Below are positions 1 through 29,040 of a stretch of DNA of 35,322 nt, in pieces. Made by a program: the position numbers and the translations under genes. The DNA is taken from IMG/VR virus record IMGVR_UViG_3300047455_000225, positions 1-35,322 of that record. The stretch is one strand, 5' to 3'. The first letter of the stretch is position 1. Each line of letters opens with the position of its first letter. A model generated the notes under the pieces. The model had not been told where the DNA came from and did not search any database. It worked only from the letters and a program-made list of their open reading frames with translations. Origin of the DNA: a virus.

Positions 1-1
1 C

Positions 2-985
2 GTTGGTTATCCTGACACCAGTAGCCCAGCCGCCGAACACGGGACAATGCTGCATGGCATTGCTGAAGAAGTTCTGCGCATTGGGTTCACTGACGCCTCG
101 ACCTTAGAGGCTTCTGATTGGGAAATGGTTCAGAACTATTGTGCCTACGTTAAAGAGTACGCTGGGCCTGGCGCCCATCTCTACGTTGAGCACAATGTTT
201 CCCTTGAGCAGTACGTCACTGACATGCGCGGATCGATTGATGCGCTGATCGTAAGTGATGAGGCCATCCACGTCATCGACCTGAAGACCGGGCAATTTGG
301 TGTATACGCCTCAGACAATCCGCAGTTGATGGCCTATGCCCTTGGCGCCACTGATGAGTTCGATGGCTGGGCCAAAGAAATCTATGTGCATATATGGCAA
401 CCGGGCAACGTGAACCACTTCCACGTATCTGAGGAAGAGCTCACCAAGTTTAGTGAGCGCCTTGTGGCCAGCGCCGATATTGCCCTAGCGCCCAATGCCC
501 CAAGAAATCCATCGGAGGATGCCTGCAGGTACTGCAAGGCGGCGCCTGAGTGCCCGGCTCTGTATAAGGATCAACTGGCGATTGTCGGCGGTGACTTTAC
601 CGACCTGACAGACCCAGAAAAGCTGACCGATGAGCAGATCGCCACGGTGGTGCTGAACAAAGCGCGGGTAGAAAAGTGGATGAAGTCCGTATGGACGCAT
701 GCGCTGGATCGACACAATCGCAACCAGCCGCTCGAGGGCGTAAAGGTTGTGGAGGGTAGAGCCATGCGGAAATTTACTAAAGAGGGTAAGGAAGCCCTTG
801 TGAGTTATCTAGGAGATGAGGCGTATGAGAAAAAGGTCATTGGCGTGACCGCAGCCGACAAGCTCCTGGGGAAAGAATTGGTGGACGCAATGACCGTAAA
901 GGTAGGTTCGCCAACATTGGCTGGTCTTGATGATACTAGGCCGGCCTTAACTAACGCGATCGATGACTTCGATCGTCTAAACTGA
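2..985 (+). CDS. DUF2800 family PD-(D/E)XK nuclease, RecB/Cas4-like (5' end outside window)
   Basis: The first ATG in this frame is at 47, but the frame is open back to base 2 and the upstream codons read VGYPDTSSPAAEHGT, which matches the conserved family start where an A-E-G-T-like motif precedes a histidine helix. The gene therefore begins before the window. Counting from the ATG at 47, the nuclease core is visible: G-S-I-D (D65), then V-I-D-L-K (D78, K80), then N-P-Q-L-M-A-Y (Q93), the D...(D/E)xK...Q pattern of RecB-like exonucleases. A C-terminal cysteine group (C160, C163, C169) resembles the iron-sulfur ligands of Cas4/AddB-type nucleases; a further ligand would be upstream. Such genes commonly sit beside a DUF2815 gene in phage replication operons, as here. 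The likely role is processing DNA ends in phage recombination or replication. Family assignment is firm; the biochemical role is inferred. Confidence 0.85.
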   Translation, partial: VGYPDTSSPAAEHGTMLHGIAEEVLRIGFTDASTLEASDWEMVQNYCAYVKEYAGPGAHLYVEHNVSLEQYVTDMRGSIDALIVSDEAIHVIDLKTGQFGVYASDNPQLMAYALGATDEFDGWAKEIYVHIWQPGNVNHFHVSEEELTKFSERLVASADIALAPNAPRNPSEDACRYCKAAPECPALYKDQLAIVGGDFTDLTDPEKLTDEQIATVVLNKARVEKWMKSVWTHALDRHNRNQPLEGVKVVEGRAMRKFTKEGKEALVSYLGDEAYEKKVIGVTAADKLLGKELVDAMTVKVGSPTLAGLDDTRPALTNAIDDFDRLN

Positions 986-998
986 AAAGGAACTAACA

Positions 999-1532
999 AT
1001 GTCTAAGTTAATGTTAAAGAACGTCCGCCTGAGTTTCCCATCACTGTTTGAGCACGCCGAATACAGGGGTGACAGCTTGGGTAAGTATGAGTGTACCTTC
1101 TTGATCGACAAAGAGTCTCCGCAGTTGGCGGAAATTCAGGCCAAGATCAAAGAGATCGGCACTGACGTGCTGGGTAAAGAGTGGTCTAAGGCGAAACTCT
1201 GCCTGCAGGACGGCGCCTCAAAGGATTACGATGGCTATGAAAATTGCTTCGCCCTCAAGGCGACTACCAAGAAACGGCCGATCGTCATCAATAAGGATAA
1301 GTCAGCTGTCACGGCTGATGATGACGTGATCTATGCCGGCTGTTATGTCAACGCATCGGTATCTATCTATGCGTTCCAGAACACCTACGGGAAGTTTGTC
1401 CAGGCCCAGCTGAACGCTGTGCAGTTCAGTAAGGATGGCGACCGCTTCGGTGGTGGTGATGACTTCAGCATCGATGAGTTTGAGTCGATCGACAGTGATG
1501 ATGGCGATGACGGGGACACAATCCCCTTCTAG
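999..1532 (+). CDS. DUF2815 family single-stranded DNA-binding protein-like
   Basis: This 177-residue protein starts 13 bases after the DUF2800 stop, with AAGGA about 8 bases ahead of ATG. The N-terminus (LMLKNVRLSFPSLFE) is typical of DUF2815, whose members are often annotated as phage ssDNA-binding proteins. The last 25 residues are strongly acidic (repeated D, E, S) and end in D-G-D-T-I-P-F, very like the D-D-D-I-P-F tip that bacterial SSB uses to recruit replication partners. That supports an SSB-like role in which the tail docks the neighbouring nuclease or helicase or host factors. The core fold is not provable by eye. A strong hairpin follows the gene at 1542-1565. Confidence 0.8.
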   Translation: MSKLMLKNVRLSFPSLFEHAEYRGDSLGKYECTFLIDKESPQLAEIQAKIKEIGTDVLGKEWSKAKLCLQDGASKDYDGYENCFALKATTKKRPIVINKDKSAVTADDDVIYAGCYVNASVSIYAFQNTYGKFVQAQLNAVQFSKDGDRFGGGDDFSIDEFESIDSDDGDDGDTIPF

Positions 1533-1541
1533 GATCCTACC

Positions 1542-1565
1542 GGGGCGACTCCTCTGGAGCGCCCC
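1542..1565 (+). terminator. Intergenic GC hairpin without U-tract
   Basis: GGGGCG (1542-1547) and CTCC (1549-1552) pair with GGAG (1556-1559) and CGCCCC (1560-1565) around a TCT loop, leaving one unpaired A. The ten base pairs are mostly GC. No T-run follows, so it is more likely an attenuator, pause or 3'-end stabiliser than a complete intrinsic terminator. It separates the SSB-like gene from the helicase gene and shares the 12-mer TACCGGGGCGAC with the hairpin at 4073. Confidence 0.5.
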
Positions 1566-1602
1566 ACCCCTCCAAAACGTAACCTAAAATTTGGGGAGTT
1601 GT

Positions 1603-2784
1603 ATGGTATACGCCAGCCACCAGATTCAAGCCAGTGACGATATAGCCGATAGGCTGGAGCGAGACAAGTTCGCCGCGCTCGCAGGCGCCCCCCGATCAGG
1701 AAAGACAGCCACGGCCATACGGGCCTGTGAGCTCCTACATTATGACTCTGTCCTCGTGTTCACCCCGAAGGCAGCAATACCGGGCTGGCACTCTGAGATT
1801 GAGCGCACCGGCACCAAGACCCATATCACCGTGACCAACTACGAGCAGGCGCACAAGCTAGACCCTGATGACTATGACTTTGTGATACTGGATGAGAGCC
1901 ACCGCTTAGGTAATAGGGGTAAGCCCACCAAGCGGGTGCAGAGTATCGCCCGTGTGGCGTATAACAAGCCGCTACTGATCATGTCCGGGACGATGATCAT
2001 TGAGACGCCGCTCTCGATCTTCTACCAACAGGCCATCAGCCGGCACGGGCCGTTCCAGTTCCAGAGCTTCTACAAGTTCTTCAAGGAATACGGCATCCCT
2101 AATACGATCAGCATTAATGGCCGCACCATTGAGCAGTACAACCGGGCCAGGCCCGAACTGGAAGAGGCCATAGGCGAGTTTGTGGTGACCATGACCCAGC
2201 AGGACGCCGGCATTAAGGTCTCCGCGGTCGATCAGCTGCACGCCGTTAAGCTCAGCCCGGAGACCAAGCAGATGATCAAAGACGTGAAGGAAGGCGTGCT
2301 AGAAATCGCCGGCCGGGAGTACCTGTTTGAGTCGTTGATGGCTGAGCGATCCGCCATTCATCAGCTGGAGTACGGTGGGCTGAAAATCGGCGATGAATAT
2401 TGGGAGTCTGGTACGGATGAGGTAGCCGATTACATCCTAAAGACCTTTGGCGACCACGATAAGATGGCTCTGATGTGTCACTACATTAGCACCCGCCAGG
2501 TGTTTGAGCGCAAGTTCAAGAACGCCCGGTTGCTGTCCTCCAACGCGCACGCAGAGGGTGTAGATCTATCGCAGTACACAGACTTTGTGGTGGCTGGGAC
2601 TGATTTCTCTGGCGCCAAGCACGCGCAGCGGCGGGAGCGTGGGATCAACATGATGCGTAAGGGTGAGGTGACCGTCCACTTTGTTATCACCAACGGCGGT
2701 ATCAGCCGGCCGGTCTATAACGCGGTGACCAGCAAGAAGGACTTTAACTTATCTCAATATCGGAAATGGCGAGGTACGCTATGA
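1603..2784 (+). CDS. SF2 (SNF2/DEAD-like) DNA helicase
   Basis: A 393-residue ATPase. The start is placed at the ATG at 1603 because GGGGAG (1593-1598) lies 4 bases ahead of it; an in-frame TTG at 1591 would overlap that site. Walker A is G-A-P-R-S-G-K-T (residues 28-35), the Walker B/DEAH-like motif is V-I-L-D-E-S-H (94-100), motif III is S-G-T (128-130), and a C-terminal Q-R-R-E-R fits motif VI with its arginine finger. SNF2-like helicases with VRR-NUC and DUF2800/DUF2815 genes form a common phage replication cluster. The protein is somewhat short for an SNF2 helicase, with little accessory sequence. It probably remodels or unwinds DNA during phage replication or recombination. Its last 41 bases overlap the 3' end of the opposite-strand VRR-NUC gene. 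Confidence 0.85.
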   Translation: MVYASHQIQASDDIADRLERDKFAALAGAPRSGKTATAIRACELLHYDSVLVFTPKAAIPGWHSEIERTGTKTHITVTNYEQAHKLDPDDYDFVILDESHRLGNRGKPTKRVQSIARVAYNKPLLIMSGTMIIETPLSIFYQQAISRHGPFQFQSFYKFFKEYGIPNTISINGRTIEQYNRARPELEEAIGEFVVTMTQQDAGIKVSAVDQLHAVKLSPETKQMIKDVKEGVLEIAGREYLFESLMAERSAIHQLEYGGLKIGDEYWESGTDEVADYILKTFGDHDKMALMCHYISTRQVFERKFKNARLLSSNAHAEGVDLSQYTDFVVAGTDFSGAKHAQRRERGINMMRKGEVTVHFVITNGGISRPVYNAVTSKKDFNLSQYRKWRGTL

Positions 2785-3031
2785 CCTCTTCCAGAGACTC
2801 AGCCAGTATGGCCACACCGCCGGCCGCTTCGATGCGCTTGAGTTGCGCTATCTGCAGTTTGCTTGCCTTGCCCCCTGGGGCTTTAACTTCTATCGCCACA
2901 AACTTACCGCTGATCACAGCGAGGATGTCAGGCGTGCCGCGCTTGTTTGCTGCCATCACCTTGACCACCCAACACTCATCTAACGTCGATAAGTAATCGG
3001 AGATCTTCTTTTGTATGTCTGACTCAAACAT
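2744..3031 (-). CDS. VRR-NUC domain nuclease, antisense to its neighbours
   Basis: Ninety-five residues from the ATG at 3031; the frame stays open to a TTG at 3085, but the fold starts at M-F-E-S-D. The VRR-NUC core is clear: R-G-T-P-D-I-L (PD at 34-35), then V-A-I-E-V-K (E48, K50), then Q60 and a C-terminal A-G-G-V-A-I-L strand, a PD-(D/E)XK fold seen in phage nucleases and in FAN1. Phage members are regarded as structure-specific or Holliday-junction nucleases. The gene usually travels beside the SNF2 helicase on the same strand; here it is inverted, overlapping the helicase 3' end by 41 bases and the zinc-ribbon 5' end by 17. No good Shine-Dalgarno site is visible. Conserved catalytic residues argue strongly against a chance frame. 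Confidence 0.8.
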   Translation of the reverse strand: MFESDIQKKISDYLSTLDECWVVKVMAANKRGTPDILAVISGKFVAIEVKAPGGKASKLQIAQLKRIEAAGGVAILAESLEEVIAYLAISDIEIS

Positions 3032-3170
3032 AAAGGATTCTAAACCCTGCGAGAAATGTGGCGCAACTGCAGAAGCGGTGCGCAAGGCACAGGATCTAAG
3101 TCTAGTAGGATTCTACTGTCCTACATGCAGACACTACGACAAAGCTATAGGAAGAGAGAGGAAACTGTGA
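3015..3170 (+). CDS. Small zinc-ribbon protein (51 aa)
   Basis: ATG at 3015, TGA at 3168-3170. The protein carries C-E-K-C (C12, C15) and C-P-T-C (C35, C38) 19 residues apart, the layout of a zinc ribbon, with a basic end (R47, R49, K50). It is the only + strand frame that fills the gap between the helicase and the terminator at 3217-3248. GGAG (2999-3002) lies 12 bases ahead of ATG, longer than ideal. The start overlaps the 5' end of the opposite-strand VRR-NUC gene. Such small phage zinc ribbons may bind nucleic acid or host polymerase, but no specific role can be assigned. The two paired CxxC motifs make a chance frame unlikely. Confidence 0.65.
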   Translation: MSDSNIKDSKPCEKCGATAEAVRKAQDLSLVGFYCPTCRHYDKAIGRERKL

Positions 3171-3183
3171 TACAAAATACATG

Positions 3184-3212
3184 CCGGGAACTTTGCAAAC
3201 GTTTGAACCCGG
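3184..3212. repeat. Nested inverted repeat ahead of terminator
   Basis: CCGGG (3184-3188) pairs with CCCGG (3208-3212), and the enclosed stretch contains the perfect 10-base palindrome CAAACGTTTG (3196-3205). This could be a dyad operator or an RNA hairpin. GGTAA (3211-3215) can instead pair with TTACC (3228-3232), so this arm competes with a second structure next to the terminator. Confidence 0.45.
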
Positions 3213-3216
3213 TAAG

Positions 3217-3248
3217 GCCCGCTTGAGTTACCCCTCGGCGGGCTTTTT
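3217..3248 (+). terminator. Rho-independent terminator of the rightward operon
   Basis: GCCCGC (3217-3222) pairs with GCGGGC (3238-3243), with an inner GAG (3225-3227) to CTC (3234-3236), followed at once by TTTTT (3244-3248). This is a classic intrinsic terminator for + strand transcripts from the helicase/zinc-ribbon genes. The T-run overlaps the stop codon of the opposite-strand gene 3247-3489; in that direction the hairpin is not followed by a U-run. Confidence 0.8.
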
Positions 3249-3489
3249 ATTGCCGCCTCCAGAGCCGCACGGTGTCGCCTGGCTCTTTGCGCTGAGTGAA
3301 GCGCCACTTCATTGTCCGCTCAAAGTACGCCTTAATCCTTAGGCTCGTTTTGCCGTCCACAACAATGCATTGGCCAATCTGCCAACCCAGTAAATTGGAG
3401 TAATCGTGTCGCGTTCTGGTCTCAGGCATCGGGTGCCCATCCATTAACTGCATAAATATATTCCGTACATTTTGTATAGATGCTATCAT
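3247..3489 (-). CDS. Small hypothetical protein (80 aa)
   Basis: I do not recognise this protein. It is basic and rich in R, K, Q and W (ends R-L-W-R-R-Q), with a compact body from T-R-T-R-H-D-Y to W-R-F-T-Q-R, compatible with a small nucleic-acid-binding protein. Initiation at the ATG at 3489 is uncertain because upstream signals are weak; ATGs at 3453 and 3444 are alternatives that would leave an AT-rich 60-70 base divergent promoter region before the + strand gene at 3517. It points the same way as the VRR-NUC gene, 215 bases further along, so the two may share a leftward transcript. The position between divergent small genes suggests a regulator, but that is inference only. Confidence 0.55.
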   Translation of the reverse strand: MIASIQNVRNIFMQLMDGHPMPETRTRHDYSNLLGWQIGQCIVVDGKTSLRIKAYFERTMKWRFTQRKEPGDTVRLWRRQ

Positions 3490-3516
3490 AAAACTCTAAA
3501 CAACGGGGCACAGTAT
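3454..3516. promoter_or_regulatory. AT-rich divergent promoter region (candidate)
   Basis: Between the rightward gene at 3517 and the alternative leftward start at 3453 lies an AT-rich stretch with several -10-like hexamers (TATCAT at 3484-3489 on the + strand; TATACA and TATATT on the - strand). -35 matches are poor in both directions. Divergent gene orientation is the main reason to place promoters here. Confidence 0.3.
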
Positions 3517-3777
3517 ATGATCATACAATGGACAGGGCCGGATAACGGAGACGGCCGGGTAGCTGACTTTGCCATCAGTAAGAGCGACATCGAGCACCGC
3601 AGGATGGAGGTTAGGCAGGCGATAGCGCAGCTGGGCGCCATGTCTGAGCTCTCAGTGGTCTCTGTGACGGAAATCTGCGAGTCACTGGGTATCGACGCCT
3701 ACCCAGTTATATCTGCCGTAGAGCGCCTTAGAGACGTTTCTGATAAGACCATACTTAAGCTAGAGGATTACATGTAA
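3517..3777 (+). CDS. Small hypothetical protein with possible winged-helix segment (86 aa)
   Basis: The start chosen is the ATG at 3517, with GGGG (3505-3508) 8 bases ahead; the frame is open upstream to a TTG at 3472, which has no ribosome site. Residues 49-73 (S-V-T-E-I-C-E-S-L-G-I-D-A-Y-P-V-I-S-A-V-E-R-L) read like a helix-turn-helix or winged-helix recognition unit, preceded by a helical segment (residues 23-40). No family is recognised. It is directly followed by the next gene (TAA then GTG), so the pair is probably one transcript. A DNA-binding role is a guess from the HTH-like pattern. Confidence 0.6.
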   Translation: MIIQWTGPDNGDGRVADFAISKSDIEHRRMEVRQAIAQLGAMSELSVVSVTEICESLGIDAYPVISAVERLRDVSDKTILKLEDYM

Positions 3778-4047
3778 GTGGCGATGAAGCTTAGCAACTG
3801 CGGACGATACTGGTTACCCGCGGCTGAGATGCCGTTCCCTGACAAAGAGTCCGCCAGAAAAGAGCTGCACTCGCACATTGAGGACTACCTGGCCCGCGGA
3901 GGGTCGATCGAAAAGCTGTCTCACACCAACTTTGCAGAGACTCCCCGGAGTGGTGAGGAGTACAGAGAGATGTTCAAGTCCAATCTGTCATTCGGCCATA
4001 ATCGGAATCGTAAGATCCAATTCAACCACAAGATAAAGTCAGATTAA
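3778..4047 (+). CDS. Small hypothetical protein (89 aa)
   Basis: GTG at 3778 abuts the previous stop, with AGAGGA (3762-3767) 10 bases ahead; an ATG at 3784 is an alternative with a poorer site. The protein is soluble, mixed charge and rich in E, K, N and R, with a basic C-terminus (H-N-R-N-R-K, then K-I-K). No domain is recognised. It is the last rightward gene before the convergent point, so it lies at the 3' end of the early/middle transcript. Confidence 0.55.
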   Translation: MAMKLSNCGRYWLPAAEMPFPDKESARKELHSHIEDYLARGGSIEKLSHTNFAETPRSGEEYREMFKSNLSFGHNRNRKIQFNHKIKSD

Positions 4048-4110
4048 TGGTGGCCCTGGGGGCATTACGGGTTACCGGGGCGACCGCAATGAACGCCCCC
4101 CCAGGACCAT
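4047..4110. terminator. Long inverted repeat between convergent gene blocks
   Basis: ATGGT and CCTGGGGG near 4047-4062 pair with CCCCCAGG and ACCAT at 4098-4110, leaving a GGC bulge. Inside lies a second hairpin, GGGGCG (4077-4082) with CGCCCC (4094-4099). The repeat lies exactly where the rightward genes (ending 4047) and leftward late genes (ending 4115) meet, as expected for a bidirectional terminator. No T-run is present on either side, so termination may rely on hairpin stability or Rho. Confidence 0.5.
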
Positions 4111-4114
4111 AAAC

Positions 4115-4993
4115 TCAACTACAAACTGGCGGTTTCGGTGAGAAGGCAACTGACTGACAATTCACATAAACCGTCTCAGTTGTCCCGTCCCCGTCTGATC
4201 CAGCTACCGCTACACCATCTAGGTCGATTGAGTAAGCCGCACCGGCCGCATTAAGTGAGGCGATGAGCTCGGCCATAGACATGTTGCTGCCTTCGTAGTC
4301 GATAATGTAATCAGTGTGGTCATTGATGCCGGTGTTAACGAATCCGTTATCGGTGGCTGCATATGAGGTCGTTGTAGTTGTGTTGCTATCCTGGCTGGAA
4401 GTGGAACTGGTGTCGGCACTGCTAACACTGGACTGATCAACATAGGCGTTATCGCTTAGCTGATACAAATCCCCACCGGCCGATATGCCAACCTGATTTG
4501 CGGCCGCAGTGCCCAAGTCTGCCACAGACTGAACGATCGCTGCGTCTGCCGCCTGATCGCCTAACAGGATCTTGCGGTTGTTATTGCTCTGGTTCTTGGC
4601 AACGTCACTCTGCATCTGGGCGATGGCTACTCCGGTTATCAGCCCGGCCACTGGAGCGGCCAAGACCTTGGCGTACTCGAGACCCGTGTCTCGCTGTTGC
4701 TGCAACTGCAGAACGGGTGCATCGTCGAAGTCCTCCTCTGTGCCCTCAACGCCTATGACGGCCAAGGCCACTGTCACCGCAGGGCAATGATCTGGGTTGG
4801 CCTCGCACACGCGAGCAAGGCTATCGAACAGCTTCTCGTTGGAGGATGCTTTGGCTTTCTTTTCCTGCAGCCTAGCCTCTCGCTGAACTGCGACCATCTT
4901 GATCTGATCAGCTGAGTGCTGTTGTGTCCGAATGTTGCCGGTCTTGGTCGCACAGCCGGTCAAGAAAATTACTGCTATTAACAAATACTTCAT
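4115..4993 (-). CDS. Phage lipoprotein of unknown function
   Basis: A 292-residue protein starting M-K-Y-L-L-I-A-V-I-F-L-T-G-C: a short signal peptide with a lipobox (L-T-G-C, lipid on C14). Alanine at the +2 position predicts outer-membrane rather than inner-membrane retention in a Gram-negative host. A helical, basic, Q/K-rich stretch follows (about 25-55), then a hydrophobic Ala/Gly segment (about 110-128), a Ser/Thr-rich linker and a C-terminal region with two cysteines. AGGAG lies 7 bases before ATG. It is the last gene of the late block. It could be a superinfection-exclusion lipoprotein or a lysis (spanin-like) factor, but it is far longer than typical o-spanins and has no clear motif for either role. 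Confidence 0.75.
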   Translation of the reverse strand: MKYLLIAVIFLTGCATKTGNIRTQQHSADQIKMVAVQREARLQEKKAKASSNEKLFDSLARVCEANPDHCPAVTVALAVIGVEGTEEDFDDAPVLQLQQQRDTGLEYAKVLAAPVAGLITGVAIAQMQSDVAKNQSNNNRKILLGDQAADAAIVQSVADLGTAAANQVGISAGGDLYQLSDNAYVDQSSVSSADTSSTSSQDSNTTTTTSYAATDNGFVNTGINDHTDYIIDYEGSNMSMAELIASLNAAGAAYSIDLDGVAVAGSDGDGTTETVYVNCQSVAFSPKPPVCS

Positions 4994-5017
4994 GGGGCGT
5001 CTCCTACTGGTAATTGT

Positions 5018-5620
5018 TTATCTCACTACTTCTGGCATTTCGGGCCAGGTGATGTTCTTTGGCCATCCTTCTGTTGTGGGTAAGTCGCGCAAAGCCTGCC
5101 GGAAATCTAGCCACTCCTGCAGGTTCTTAACGCATGCGTCTGGTGCGTGAACAAAATCACTGCGCGCGAGGACATCGTTCCGCTCAAAGCGAAACGCCAT
5201 TTCCATGTGCGCGTACTGGGCCTCCGCTTCCTCTTCGGTGTACTTAACAATGTCCCAGCCGACCGTCTCCTGGTGTGGTGAGGTGATGTCCTGAGCGACC
5301 AGATACTCTGTCCAAACGTCAAACTCAGGCTGGGGCAGTGAGCGCGTGTGTATCTCTTGCGCCATATAGACCTCTGGCTCAACGTCCATCTCGCCGGTCA
5401 TGGGAATCGGGCATTCACTCTTATGAGCCTGCGCCCTATTCCAGAAGCCGGTGACTACGGACCCGACCGCCTTAATCAGTTCTTCTAGCTTCTCTTTGCT
5501 GAAGTCGGGCGGGTTGAGCGACTTGTAATACTGCCAATCTGGGTTATCCGGCGAAGTAAACTTCAGCAGGATATACTCTCTCTCAGGCTCATATTCTTCA
5601 ATCTCATATTTGATCTTCAT
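5018..5620 (-). CDS. Tail fiber assembly chaperone-like protein
   Basis: A 200-residue protein whose C-terminal 50 residues (147-195) have the pattern R-N-D-x-L-A-R-S-D ... D ... W-L-D-F-R-Q-A-L-R-D-L-P ... W-P, the signature of phage tail assembly chaperone / tail fiber assembly proteins (PF16778-like). Members usually lie directly after the fiber or adhesin gene they serve. Here it follows the glycine-rich adhesin by 12 bases, with AAGGAAGGA before its ATG. The N-terminal 145 residues are acidic and not recognised. The likely role is folding or attachment of the adhesin or neighbouring fiber; whether it stays in the virion cannot be told. Confidence 0.7.
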   Translation of the reverse strand: MKIKYEIEEYEPEREYILLKFTSPDNPDWQYYKSLNPPDFSKEKLEELIKAVGSVVTGFWNRAQAHKSECPIPMTGEMDVEPEVYMAQEIHTRSLPQPEFDVWTEYLVAQDITSPHQETVGWDIVKYTEEEAEAQYAHMEMAFRFERNDVLARSDFVHAPDACVKNLQEWLDFRQALRDLPTTEGWPKNITWPEMPEVVR

Positions 5621-5632
5621 ATCCGTCCTTCC

Positions 5633-6709
5633 TTAACAAGTTCTGTATGCGATATACATCGCGCCGTAGTCACCCTGCTTGCCCGATTCGGCATAGACGC
5701 CGTTGCTGTACGACCCGCCGCCACCTCCTCCAGCGCCCTTCTCCGATCCTGCTGTGGCATAGCCTGTCGATGGCGTAGGAGAAACCGACTTGCCGCCACG
5801 GCCTCCGCCCTTAACGCCGCCATCCTTGTAATGCCCGATCCCGGCTCCTGTTCCACCAGCGCCGTACCGGGTCTGCTGAACCGTATAGTTGAGACCGTTG
5901 CCGCCCTTGCCGCCGTATCGGTAGGTGTCATTCGCGCCCGGAACGCCAGCCTGACCAGCTTGCTCGGACCCGCCTCCTCCTCCGCCGCCACCTGAGTTGC
6001 CAGCTCCGCCGTTTTTCTGACGGCCTGTTCCGCCCGCGAACGAATTGCTCGCGCCGTACTTGCCCGCGCCACCTCCGCCGTTTCCGCCGCCAAGGCCGGT
6101 TTCGGTATTGCCATTTGAGTAAGTTCCGCCCCCGCCCCCGCCGTAAAACGTTGCAGAAGCATCGACAATCGTGCTTCCTCCGGTTGCGCCTCGATTGTTA
6201 TAAGTGCCTCCTGCTCCGGGCTTTCCGGGAACAGCGCCATTGCCAGCGCCAGCGACTGCGGCATAGGTAGCCAGAGCCGTCTGGCCTCCGCCGCCTCCTC
6301 CGCCACAACGCGAAGCTCCGCCATTTTGCTGGTGAGCGTTGCCTCCTCCTCCACCGCCGCCGCCGCCAGCCGTTATCATACGATAAAGATTGTTATCCAT
6401 GCCGCCAGAAGCGATAGACGTAACGGTGAAACGAGTCGAAGCGTTGCTGTTTGTGATCTTGTGGATCTTCCATACACCTTCGGTGACGACGCTGTTGCCG
6501 CCCGATCCGACGATGCAACTCGTAGACGATGCGCCCCAGTAATGACTGATCGCACAGTTGTTGTGGCCGCGCCCCAAGCTTGTATTCTTCGGACACCAAT
6601 CGGCATTGGTCGATCCATCTCGGCGAAGGTTAAAGTTACTGATAGTTCCTGCGGCGAACTCGGCCCAGATCTGGGTCATCTTCAGCATTCCGTTCGGGGC
6701 TAAAGCCAT
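5633..6709 (-). CDS. Glycine-rich tail-tip/receptor-binding adhesin candidate
   Basis: 358 residues. The N-terminus (M-T-Q-I-W-A-E-F ... I-S-N-F-N-L-R-R-D-G-S) resembles the short lead of other phage glycine-rich tail proteins. From about residue 115 to 340 the protein consists of many glycine runs (up to nine in a row) broken by short variable loops containing N, S, T, Y and Q. This layout resembles the T2/S16 gp38-type tip adhesin, in which glycine-rich strands form a polyglycine-II sandwich and the loops bind the receptor. It lies between an S74 tail fiber and a tail-fiber chaperone-like gene, as expected for a distal receptor-binding protein. Its start overlaps the fiber stop (TAATG). The adhesin role is inferred from layout and context, not homology proven here. 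Confidence 0.65.
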   Translation of the reverse strand: MALAPNGMLKMTQIWAEFAAGTISNFNLRRDGSTNADWCPKNTSLGRGHNNCAISHYWGASSTSCIVGSGGNSVVTEGVWKIHKITNSNASTRFTVTSIASGGMDNNLYRMITAGGGGGGGGGNAHQQNGGASRCGGGGGGGQTALATYAAVAGAGNGAVPGKPGAGGTYNNRGATGGSTIVDASATFYGGGGGGTYSNGNTETGLGGGNGGGGAGKYGASNSFAGGTGRQKNGGAGNSGGGGGGGGSEQAGQAGVPGANDTYRYGGKGGNGLNYTVQQTRYGAGGTGAGIGHYKDGGVKGGGRGGKSVSPTPSTGYATAGSEKGAGGGGGGSYSNGVYAESGKQGDYGAMYIAYRTC

Positions 6710-8313
6710 TAGTCTTCTCCTTTCAACTCTTCATTGACCTCGTCGAGATCTTCCTGCAGCTCAAGGACTTGTGTCTTTAGCTTGCGAAGCTCCTCGGACA
6801 TTTCTCTCATGGCCTCAATCATCGGCGCTATCAGCTTCTCTATCTTGACGCCCTTGAACCCGTTGGCCTGCTCCCGGACTAGCTCAGGAAATATCGTCTC
6901 AACATCCTGGGCGATAACTGAGTAGTCATGTGAGCCGACCTCATAAATATCCTGCTTATCGTTCCAATCGTACTCAACCCCGCGCAGCGACAATACCTTC
7001 TGCAGTGCAGACTCAATCGGTTGGATGCGATCCTTCAGCCGTTCATCTGAAGTGTAGTAAGCGATCACGTCCTGCTTGCTTCTGATGACACTCGACGCAT
7101 CGATGTACGTCACATTCAATCGGTCGCCTAGATCGAGACCAGACCTAAAGGTGTAAACCGACGATGACGCAAAAGTGCCGGCAGTGATATTCGCCGCACT
7201 ATGGTTGTGCGAGGATGGAGCGTATCCAGTGTGAGCGTGAGACCCCCGGGCCACGTTGTCATAGCCCTCACCGAAGATCTTGTTAAAGGCACTGTTCTTG
7301 GTGAACGCAGGCTCATACGGGTGCGTGTGGTTAAGAGGCGCGTACTCATTACCATGGCCGTGATTGGACAGCGCGTAGTTACTGTGACCGTGGTTGCCCT
7401 CTGCTACCGTCCCGGCACTGGTGCCAAAGTTCTTGTTAAAGGCAGTGTTCTTTGCGAATGCGTTTTCGTAGTTGCCTTTCTCCTGATACCAAGCGTCGAG
7501 CGTTGTCTTATTGACTGATACCACCGGTGCAGCAGGCGTTGCGTTATTGACAGAGATACCCGAACCGGCGCCGATACTAGTGATGCCGCCAGTGAAAACC
7601 TCGCCCAGTAGGAACCAGGCCCCACCAGTTCCTTCAGGAACCTGATCACCGTTAGCGTTGTGATTCTTGGAGTAGCCCATCGCGTTACCGACGTTGACGT
7701 ACTGACCAGCAATGCCGATCCAGTTACTAGCGGCAGTTCCAGAATTGTTGTTGATGTACATGTCGCCATGACCAGGACCGGCTGGCGGCTGGGTGGTCAC
7801 GTCGTAACCGCCCATAAAGTTAAGCTCAGTCTCTATCAGCTTAGGCGGATTGTTCTCCCAGCTTGCGCCGTTCCATTGCAGGTAATCGTCTTTGGTCAGG
7901 CTGCTTAGGCCAACATCGCCCAGTAGCTCCATGGTGTAATCGTTCTCTGCAGGTTGGATGTTGCCGTTCTCATCCGGGTTCCTACCGTTAAAGGTTAGAA
8001 CACCGTTCTCGATATTGACCTCAATCCACTCAAGCAGTTCGATCTCGTTGATGATGTCCAGCCCGGCGCCATTACTGTTACCGATCTTTACGTCAACGCT
8101 GCCGGTGTAAACATAAACGCCAACCGACCCATCGGCTTCCTGCTTACTCCACAGGCCGCCACCTTCCGTATAGGGAGGTCTGGAATCGCCAAGGTTGTTA
8201 GTGTCGATAGACTCAACAAACGAGTTCAGGAAAGCTGCAAGGTCAATACCGCTTGTGTCGTAAGGGCTTATGGGCCAAGGACTACCCTCTGGCCGCTGGT
8301 CTCTATTGCTCAT
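6709..8313 (-). CDS. Tail fiber with C-terminal S74 (intramolecular chaperone) domain
   Basis: 534 residues. The C-terminus holds the Peptidase_S74 chaperone: T-S-D-E-R-L-K-D (predicted autocleavage serine S422), then V-I-A-Q-D-V-E and F-P-E-L-V, ending in a coiled coil (about 490-534). The middle carries five H-x-H sites (N-H-G-H twice, N-H-T-H, S-H-A-H, S-H-N-H), the motif that coordinates iron in the T4 gp37 needle. The N-terminus probably docks on the J-like protein encoded just upstream (4-base ATGA overlap). It is expected to be a trimer that trims its own chaperone after folding. The S74 call is firm; the receptor is unknown. Confidence 0.88.
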   Translation of the reverse strand: MSNRDQRPEGSPWPISPYDTSGIDLAAFLNSFVESIDTNNLGDSRPPYTEGGGLWSKQEADGSVGVYVYTGSVDVKIGNSNGAGLDIINEIELLEWIEVNIENGVLTFNGRNPDENGNIQPAENDYTMELLGDVGLSSLTKDDYLQWNGASWENNPPKLIETELNFMGGYDVTTQPPAGPGHGDMYINNNSGTAASNWIGIAGQYVNVGNAMGYSKNHNANGDQVPEGTGGAWFLLGEVFTGGITSIGAGSGISVNNATPAAPVVSVNKTTLDAWYQEKGNYENAFAKNTAFNKNFGTSAGTVAEGNHGHSNYALSNHGHGNEYAPLNHTHPYEPAFTKNSAFNKIFGEGYDNVARGSHAHTGYAPSSHNHSAANITAGTFASSSVYTFRSGLDLGDRLNVTYIDASSVIRSKQDVIAYYTSDERLKDRIQPIESALQKVLSLRGVEYDWNDKQDIYEVGSHDYSVIAQDVETIFPELVREQANGFKGVKIEKLIAPMIEAMREMSEELRKLKTQVLELQEDLDEVNEELKGED

Positions 8314-26187: not shown

Positions 26188-29040
26188 TCAAAAGATCCCT
26201 GAGATGGTTATGTAATAGATGGCGTCTGCTGTGAAGCTCTCTTTGGTGTGGTGCGATTTGATGTAGCAAACGACATCGGCGACGTGCCAATCGATCCTGT
26301 CGATACTGCCGTGCGCTCTCTGCTTCCACTTCCGTCTGGTTTCGTCAGCGCCTAGCGCGGGGTAATACCAGATCGTGTAGAACAGTGGGCCTTCATTGCC
26401 CTCCCAGAACCTGTCTCCGCTAATGTTTTGGCTCGCCCAATCGACGTTGAGAGACTTAGTGCTGATGCGGATCTTGTTCCTGCTGTCAGAGTTGTAATAC
26501 TGAAAGCACTTCTCACTCATGCCGCTACTGCCGGACTGATAGGTGAATGGCTGACCGGGCGGCGCATCCAACCGATCTTGTAACTCAGCAAACTTTCTTG
26601 CTATTTCATCGTCGACGTAACTCTTCGGAGTCGCGTGATGACCGCTGGTTGGCGTCTTGAGGTTGTAAGCGCCAAGCTGGCCGTTTTGAACATGCAGCAG
26701 GGTTTTGCTACTGCCGTTTATCTCTTGCTTGATCTTCCAATCAGTTTCATCAGGTAGCTGGTTGGTGCCTTCGTTTTTCAGAGTGACGCGCTCGAAGTAG
26801 GCGTTAAGAGTCAGCGTGTCCTGACGCAGGATTTCATCTTGCTGGTCAACGTAGGCGATAGTCGCTATGCCAGCCGGGTCATACTGCGACAACATGACGA
26901 ACCCGTATGGGCCGACAAACATTTCGTTTAGATCGCCGTTGATCTTGGTGACACTGAAGAAGCCTTGCGACTCACTAGTAACTCGCAACTCGGCCATGCC
27001 CATAGCGCCATGCGCTAGACGGATGACATCGCCAACCCCGACTCGGTCAATATCGACAGGCGAGCCGTCAGCGTCGACATTGCTGATCTGAATGTGCGCC
27101 GCCTCTTCGATCTTGTAGACCATCTGCATGGTATCGTCGAGAAGGTTGAACTCGCCATGCCTCGGAGTCTGATTGCTCTGAGTGAAGTTGAGCGTATGTT
27201 CACCGACCGCACCCTCAATCTGCTTCACCTTATTCTCAAGAGTGACTAGATCGCTTTTGATCTCCTGCTGCACGCCTTCGCCAACTTTGACTCGGCCCTC
27301 AATCGCACTCTGCTCGCCTAATGCGTGAACGATCTCAGCGGCGATGATCTCTTGCTTTGCTTCGCCTGCTTCAACGCGGCCCAGTATCTGCGCCTGTAGC
27401 GCCTCGCCAGCGTCCACCCGGGCGCCCAACGGGGAGCAAGGAAACCAGCCATCATTTGCATACACGAAAAGCTCAAGCCTGCCGGTGTCGTACCAGCACA
27501 GCCCTTCCTCGGGATTCTCTGGCGGATCTTCAGCAACGATCGTCCCGGGTGGTATCTCACCAGCTTCAATGTCCTCTATCTGCTGGAGCACAAAGCGGTT
27601 CACTTCCATCTGATTGGTAAGCTGATCAATCTCCTCAGGCGTAGCCCTAAAGCGGCCTTTCGTATCCCGGAAAAGGATGTCCGGCCGGGTCGCTACCTTG
27701 TCTGTAGTGAGATCTTCTAGATCTGCAACGATGTTGCCAACATACTGGTTGAAATCTTGCTGAGTGTTGTACTGACCTTGGATGTCCGATGTCTCTCTCT
27801 GCGGATTAGTCAGTAATACATTGTTTGTAAATATGGGGCCGCCATCTGTTCCGCCGCCACCGCCACCAGAGCCGCTGCCGCTACCCATGGACGATGCGCC
27901 ACCAATCAGGAACCAGTAATCAATGCCTGACTCAAAGGCAGAGCCCTTCGGGTAATGACCTTTGTTGGCCCTGTGAGCAATATAGATCTCATTGCCAAAG
28001 GTGATCATATCGCCGGCTGAGTAGCTGGCTCCTACTTCGTAAAGTCCGCGATAGAACCTGACCGGAACTGCCTTCTGGTCTTCGGCGTGGTGCATGTAAT
28101 TGCCGACTAGAAATTTGACCGTCTCTTCAACACGATCGAAAATCTTATCCTCTTCTGAGGCGTGATATGACTTAGTGATCTCGGCGGCAGCAAACATCAC
28201 CGGGCCCAGGTCAGCACCAAAGGTCTTGGTCTCTCCCTTGGCAGTCTTGGTCGATACGATTAACTGATCGCCCTCAACCTCAACATCGACAATGGTGTCG
28301 CCCTGGGCGCCATCAATGCCATCCTTGCCGTCAGTACCGTCACGGCCTTTGGCTCCCTTCAGTCCCTTTGGCCCGCGGCCGACAATAAGCCTGGCCTCAT
28401 CATCAGTCTGTAGGAAGCAGCCGTAGTCCTTTACGTAAAGATCACCGGGTAGAAATTTAGCTTCGGGAGAGTAAGCGCCAGCGAACCTGAATCCAAGGTT
28501 GCCTACTCGCTCCCAATCTTCGTTGTCTGGGTTTTGCGCTGTATCTTTCGTAGCACGGAAATACTGGCCGAAGTGATACTGGACCAGGTCCCCTTCGCGG
28601 TAGACTCGATCTTCCCATACATCGACTTCAATGCCGACGCCTTGGGCGCCTTCTTCGCCTTTGGCGCCATCTTCACCTTGGGCTCCGTCTTCGCCTTTGG
28701 GGCCGGCTTCGCCTTGCTCACCTTGCTCACCCGCTTCGCCTTGGGGGCCGACTTCGCCTTGGTCGCCTTGCTCGCCGGCTTCTCCCGGCTGGCCTTCTTG
28801 TCCTTGCTCACCTTGCTCTCCTTTCTCCCCGGTCAATCCTTGCTCGCCTTGGTCGCCCTGATCACCCTTGGGCCCGACAGCGCCATCAGCACCATCCTTG
28901 CCCTCTACGGGCGCAGGTTGCTGTATCAACTCATCGACAAGCTCTACTACTTCTGCCAAACCCTTTTGTAACGGTTCAGTCTTCTCGGTAACGAATGCGT
29001 TTATTTCGCCCGCTAAAATGTCTAAGTCGGTATCTTTCAT
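26188..29040 (-). CDS. Collagen-like phage fiber protein
   Basis: 950 residues, directly after the portal gene (4-base overlap). A helical N-terminus (1-43) leads into about 30 G-x-y triplets (47-135), rich in E, Q and D, then a beta segment with Y-R-E-G-D-L-V-Q-Y ... Y-F-R-A-T ... W-E-R-V-G, resembling CBM5/12-type carbohydrate-binding modules. A second collagen patch follows (223-248), then another [14 protein letters not shown] module, a poly-Gly/Ser hinge near residue 385, heptad stretches and a beta C-terminus. Triple-helical collagen repeats in phages form trimeric shafts. It is likely a long appendage; head or neck attachment is inferred from position. Confidence 0.85.
28636..28902 (-). 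repeat. Collagen-type G-x-y coding repeat
   Basis: About 30 consecutive 9-base units encode G-x-y triplets, mainly G-E-Q, G-D-Q, G-E-A and G-P-K. The near-identical units (GGCGAGCAAGGT type) make this the most internally repetitive stretch of the window and the cause of long spurious frames on both strands. Confidence 0.85.

Follow-up and report, generated by a model that had tools for sequence, protein, structure and literature searches.

A gene for a VRR-NUC (Holliday-junction-resolvase-like) nuclease is inverted inside an operon-like series of phage replication genes, overlapping the end of a helicase gene on one side and the start of a small zinc-ribbon-like gene (znr) on the other. We put at about 0.5 the probability that this locus acts like a noncontiguous operon with a regulatory role, setting the nuclease against the helicase-znr pair, and a timing switch for the nuclease is plausible from the arrangement of the genes. 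The present analysis supplies the anatomy of the locus, its conservation, intact coding on both strands and the rarity of the layout among relatives; we infer that helicase and znr are transcribed together, that a leftward transcript exists, that each of the two transcripts lowers the other and that the nuclease is needed later.

An inverted nuclease gene in a rightward gene run

The window, that is, the whole stretch of DNA analysed, is 35,322 bases long and forms one linear IMG/VR virus record. Its rightward run comprises a DUF2800/PHROG 69 exonuclease gene (2..985, +; Pfam/PHROG match), open at the left end of the window, an Enc34-type/PHROG 112 ssDNA-binding protein gene (SSB; 999..1532, +) and a SNF2/ResIII-type helicase gene (1603..2784, +), whose ORF extends from TTG 1591 and is used here from ATG 1603. 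The helicase matches ResIII in Pfam (E 3.7e-9) and PHROG 62 ‘DNA helicase’ (E 1.4e-39). The VRR-NUC gene follows on the other strand (2744..3031, -; ATG 3031, stop 2744, 95 aa), and then znr (3015..3170, +; ATG 3015, stop 3170, 51 aa). The latter looks like the final gene of the rightward unit, because a rho-independent-terminator-like hairpin and U-run on the plus strand (3213-3249) come after it and not before it; the fold of 3210-3252 has an energy of -19.4 kcal/mol (z -3.0, 0/200 shuffles as good), and the minus-strand fold of the same stretch has no U-run. The inversion and both overlaps described in the first-pass annotation are exact by ORF coordinates: helicase and VRR-NUC share 41 bp of coding sequence tail to tail (2744..2784), and VRR-NUC and znr share 17 bp head to head (3015..3031), from the znr ATG at 3015 to the VRR-NUC ATG at 3031. 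This three-gene anatomy is certain.

The genes between ~4.1 kb and 35 kb that encode structural proteins (tail fibres, tape measure, portal, major head protein, protease and large terminase) run leftward. A GC-rich hairpin lacking a U-run (4048-4118; minus-strand fold -34.3 kcal/mol, z -2.1) lies at the junction of the rightward and leftward blocks. An 89-aa ORF (3778-4047) has a sub-cut-off match to the SutA RNA-polymerase-binding domain (22.1 vs 29.3 bits). A tRNA scan of the window reported none, and the sole Rfam match (osmY, 936-1001; E 0.17) reached 21.2 bits where the gathering score is 46.9 and was taken as chance.

The same layout in two other phages

The order helicase, inverted VRR-NUC, znr recurs in two other records, IMGVR 3300047377_000453 (L038, the same as L005) and IMGVR 3300028388_002327 (L054). 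In L038 the helicase ends at 6188 (+), VRR-NUC spans 6148-6435 (-) and znr 6419-6574 (+); in L054 the corresponding positions are 7188 (+), 7133-7417 (-) and 7401-7595 (+). The tail overlap is 41 bp in the window and in L038 and 56 bp in L054, and the overlap between the VRR-NUC and znr starts is 17 bp in all three. L038 is the nearest relative of the window (79% identity for VRR-NUC, 78% for the helicase, 76% for znr), and L054 shares 47% identity in the helicase and 46% in VRR-NUC. Each of the three thus has an opposite-strand gene within an operon-like gene run, the arrangement that defines a noncontiguous operon or excludon. Structural modules differ among the three records, so the three-gene block has been kept in unlike backgrounds, and the presence of the layout in three separate records argues against an assembly error. 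By these comparisons, the inverted layout appears to be a conserved feature.

Same-strand placement is the rule elsewhere. The first-pass annotation had proposed a comparison of gene order in related phages: among the matches listed, 97 of 100 distinct VRR genes lie on the strand of the helicase and 3 are inverted, a ratio that is no population frequency, the panel having been gathered with the window’s proteins as seed. The 97 divide into 61 downstream and 36 upstream of the helicase, and the three inverted genes are all downstream (again among the matches listed). The sample comprised 319 records, many of which derive from the same contigs and overlap one another; VRR genes were counted as distinct by the exact DNA of the VRR domain and paired with a helicase homolog (E < 1e-30) within 3 kb, the window being counted through L047. 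An earlier pass with looser helicase matches gave 97 same-strand and 4 inverted entries among the matches listed, two of the latter being one contig. The replication modules of NrS-1, PH1, KF-1 and ctXG1253 resemble that of the window in having a helicase homolog with VRR-NUC close behind, but in 4/4 the nuclease is on the helicase’s strand, and no znr homolog was detected beside it in these four. A scan of bacterial genomes found four helicase relatives, the best at 29% identity over full length, and an opposite-strand VRR gene at none of them. A limited search of the open-licence PMC literature found no phage replication operon in which a VRR-NUC or resolvase gene is inverted.

Origin of the inversion

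In a helicase tree of 59 rows the trio forms one side of a branch (support 95/70; 96% of 200 bootstrap trees), nested in a group of 12 with full support, the remaining nine members being L085, L049, L053, L251, L252, L253, L051, L050 and L100. In eight of these nine nearest rows VRR comes straight after the helicase and on its strand, 0-8 bp away by domain coordinates; the contig of L049 ends there. Rows labelled ‘same’ number 56 in this tree, and a recheck of 36 found a same-strand VRR in 33 and none in 3. In this tree L054 sits on a long branch and has an odd composition. The VRR tree, with 48 rows and 88 columns, instead groups the same-strand L006 with the window and L005 (96/65), and these three with L054 in a set of four (95/81); the trio alone is a clade in 0/200 bootstrap trees, although the AU test does not reject such a clade (p-AU 0.33).

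Because the nearest same-strand relatives have VRR directly behind the helicase, a single flip in place there would be the simplest history. The VRR tree breaks up the trio, and replacement of an older VRR by a VRR-znr cassette is therefore possible. The inverted cases are few, and the three probably share one origin: a working VRR-NUC gene would have been flipped, or swapped for a flipped copy, at its ancestral place behind the helicase, with the divergently overlapping znr either gained by the inverted gene or arriving with it, and the layout would then have been kept in at least three phages.

Proposed opposed transcription at the locus

If the locus is regulatory, rightward transcription of exonuclease, SSB, helicase and znr would run head-on through the whole VRR-NUC gene and yield RNA complementary to it, and the nuclease would stay low while the operon is busy. 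A leftward transcript would yield the nuclease at another time, in turn lowering helicase and znr; the nuclease might be needed later, for clearing branches before packaging. With helicase and znr co-transcribed, the joint RNA would be complementary to the VRR gene over its full length, and any VRR mRNA would reach across the start of znr and the end of the helicase. Of the earlier claim that the transcripts are antisense to each other, the geometric part stands, since complementarity over the full length of the nuclease gene follows if both RNAs are made; the promoter scans, however, give no supported leftward promoter.

These scans found no sigma-70 consensus promoter in positions 1-6000 of the window (4.2 expected); the sigma factors of the host may differ, and a promoter may be present all the same. 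The best promoter-like site before VRR-NUC (3037-3066, -; TTGCGC-18-TAGAAT) ends 5 nt before the ATG, and 24% of shuffles score as well or better; a site of this type is also present in L038, where 41% of shuffles match or beat it, and is missing in L054. A leaderless promoter adjoining VRR-NUC was rejected, its score being not above shuffles and the site absent from L054. L054 has one isolated leftward promoter match (8480-8451) ~1 kb upstream of VRR-NUC with a terminator-like site after it, and L038 has one rightward match (7411-7440). Inside the nuclease gene of the window, the plus strand carries a terminator-like site at 2865-2881, from a scan that gave 9 sites in 6 kb with 4.5 expected. 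None of the window, L038 and L054 has a clear Shine-Dalgarno sequence before VRR-NUC.

That the promoter scans identified no regulatory element fits a second reading, which we consider possible but less probable than regulation: the inversion would be kept by inertia and tight packing, with VRR-NUC expressed independently from a weak promoter of its own and the antisense RNA having no meaningful effect. Overlapping frames are hard to separate once formed, and their conservation needs no regulatory benefit. Nor did the VRR-NUC start yield a conserved regulatory block, a candidate that we discarded: the longest identical stretch around it, 23 nt at 3045-3067, is unexceptional, since other identical stretches measure 26, 21 and 20 nt, and is second to the longest of these, the 26-nt run in the exonuclease gene. 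Against inertia, the helicases have diverged down to 47% identity and yet orientation and the exact 17-bp overlap have been kept, and same-strand placement is the rule in relatives (97/100 among the matches listed).

The zinc-ribbon-like protein

The product of znr in the window matches zf-FPG_IleRS (E 3.1e-5) over a short stretch, other zinc-ribbon matches being below cut-off. A PDB search with its predicted structure (pLDDT 71.7, pTM 0.47) gave nothing at E <= 0.001; RNA polymerase II subunit chains came first, the best of them at E 0.28, and a search of annotated phages gave no znr match at E <= 0.05. Between the window and L038 the dN/dS of znr is <0.042. From the best 80 of 81 relatives we collected 59 distinct znr homologs, of which the trio alone (3/59) have znr within 2 kb of VRR. 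A NinG-like gene lies within 1.5 kb in 19/59 of this set and is directly adjacent on the same strand in 12/59 (L088, L216, L217, L174, L179, L181, L183, L186, L189, L197, L202 and L248); that of L216 was confirmed by Pfam (E 1.1e-47). Seven other znr homologs (L187, L190, L192, L193, L198, L199 and L208) adjoin a UvrD-like helicase gene, recognised by motif only.

The NinG neighbours, together with the place beside VRR-NUC in the trio, suggest that znr may encode a small companion of junction nucleases, possibly a partner. The start codons of znr and VRR-NUC are 17 bp apart on opposite strands, so the initiation region of each mRNA is antisense to that of the other. The pair might accordingly form a divergent switch that sets either a helicase-znr replication mode or a nuclease branch-clearing mode, with znr perhaps a partner or regulator of the junction nuclease; we think this more specific arrangement unlikely.

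The strand shared with the structural genes

VRR-NUC lies on the strand of the head, tail and terminase genes in 3/3 inverted records and on the opposite strand in the same-strand relative L085 (record G003). It could be that the flip put the nuclease on the structural strand, where leftward read-through, late or regulatory, would make it and antisense would be a by-product. Between the structural genes of the window and VRR-NUC the scan lists only one minus-strand terminator-like site, a weak one (3386-3369), which would leave such read-through some room. Sharing of the structural strand is, however, automatic after a flip and therefore gives no independent support. The gap from the last structural-strand gene to VRR-NUC is ~1.1 kb in the window and 1.8 kb in G002; in G001, measured from the last long gene on that strand, it is ~5.8 kb. 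Genes of the opposite strand intervene in each. G001 and G002, the two other inverted records, also carry primase genes on the VRR-NUC strand. Taken together, we judge capture by the structural strand quite improbable.

The same neighbourhood bears on the preferred reading, that of opposed regulation. Upstream of VRR-NUC on its own strand, the window has an 80-aa ORF without homologs in Pfam or PHROG; the region upstream holds plus-strand genes in L038 and Cro/YdaS-like and other leftward ORFs in L054. This difference in leftward content among the three phages, and the primases on the VRR-NUC strand in two of them, weaken the timing part of the proposal. The trio thus shares a nuclease gene opposed to the helicase-znr unit but no common leftward operon.

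An intact nuclease gene

The VRR_NUC family (PF08774) is matched by the window’s protein at E 3.6e-5 (24.2 bits against a cut-off of 23.8), and L038 (24.0 bits) and L054 (31.5 bits) are also above cut-off; PHROG 93 ‘endonuclease’ matches the window’s protein at E 3.7e-21. Residues E3, D35, E48-V49-K50 and Q60, which we take to be the PD-(D/E)xK catalytic set, are invariant in alignments of 11 and 12 homologs. The sequence profile of the window’s VRR-NUC matches 4qbo at E 4.2e-8, and its AlphaFold2 model (pLDDT 92.9) has 4qbl, 4qbn and 4qbo as best PDB matches, with 10 chains at E <= 0.001, of which 8 are VRR_NUC and 2 RecU (2fco). We infer cleavage of four-way junctions by the window’s enzyme from its family.

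Between the window and L038 the dN/dS of VRR-NUC is 0.068 over the 76 codons outside the overlaps and 0.116 over all 95, and the frame is full-length in 3/3 inverted records. The gene looks intact and under purifying selection. Decay of the inverted copy, which the first-pass annotation had raised as a possible objection, is thus not what we see, the gene holding the same place in three divergent phages. A decaying remnant might be suspected from an inverted frame that is overlapped at both ends and has no evident ribosome-binding site, but the low dN/dS outside the overlaps, the invariant catalytic residues and the full length in every inverted record make this very improbable.

Both overlaps are more conserved than their flanks. 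Nucleotide identity between the window and L038 is 0.829 and 0.824 in the two overlaps and 0.735 and 0.735 in the adjoining stretches. Helicase third positions have changed in 2/13 overlap codons versus 198/393 overall, and just 3 of 381 13-codon segments of the helicase show equally few third-position changes; such a deficit is expected where both strands code. A Fisher test for a deficit of synonymous change in the overlapping part of the helicase (p 1.6e-4) was set aside, as it relied on rounded counts and took the fast-changing neighbouring 80 codons as control, and the sliding comparison is fairer.

A plus-strand ORF antisense to VRR-NUC (2781-2996) shares an ATGA at its start with the helicase stop and is open in 3/3 records, with runs of 74, 74 and 80 codons that just 4.6% of 109 same-strand VRR genes equal, and its dN/dS is low (0.085) because its third positions are in common with VRR-NUC. 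That it is the real gene and VRR-NUC its shadow is scarcely credible and was rejected: open runs of this length are expected from each VRR protein and genome codon usage (P 0.27, 0.54 and 0.24), first/second position changes number 16/7 in the VRR frame and 7/16 in the plus frame, a coding-like order that fits VRR-NUC (p 0.09), and the ORF has no Pfam match whereas VRR-NUC has many homologs.

Relation to known systems

The geometry is of the published noncontiguous-operon kind, and the layout is conserved, ordered and unusual, not categorically new. The Staphylococcus aureus menE-menC-MW1733-ytkD-MW1731 operon, as described in PMC7154746, likewise holds an opposite-strand gene whose mRNA is fully complementary to an inner part of the polycistronic RNA. 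That account demonstrates both transcripts, their mutual interference and RNase III processing, whereas the window is known from DNA anatomy and conservation, and the menE-menC operon genes are unrelated to those of the window. A closer likeness in biology is the ith-1/tha-1 pair of phage 80alpha, a phage gene antisense inside an operon in a layout conserved among phages, which is described as a lysis-lysogeny switch between life-cycle states (PMC11087260). Its effect is reported to be kept in an RNase III deletion and the regulation is ascribed to polymerase collision (PMC11087260); because the 80alpha effect survived that deletion, we favour interference over dsRNA decay as the mechanism that would act here. 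The 80alpha layout, by the same description (PMC11087260), governs a defence gene in a lysogeny module, whereas that of the window concerns a recombination nuclease in a replication module and has coding overlap at both ends.

Among characterised enzymes, psNUC, stNUC and saNUC (PDB 4qbl, 4qbn and 4qbo) resemble the window’s protein as single-domain VRR-NUCs of ~95 aa with the same predicted fold and catalytic residues, and are described as dimers that cut four-way junctions (PMC4103454). The novelty would lie in gene orientation and not in the enzyme, whose activity in the window is predicted. TseV2 and TseV3, effectors with a VRR-NUC domain, are reported to kill E. coli and to induce double-strand breaks (PMC9635880). 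VRR-NUC domains can therefore be toxic, and control of their expression could matter.

Worked examples of noncontiguous operons are few. If the regulatory reading is true, gene orientation by itself would be enough for a phage to time a branch-cutting nuclease, and a dedicated regulator would not be needed. A ready comparison set exists in the three inverted records together with L085 and other same-strand sister phages. Within it, the window and IMGVR 3300047377_000453 are mosaic phages, with replication blocks at 69-79% protein identity joined to unlike structural modules. The record of L085 (G003) carries near its tail genes a reverse transcriptase gene (27515-28528, minus strand; PHROG 1423, E 1.6e-124), possibly part of a diversity-generating retroelement.
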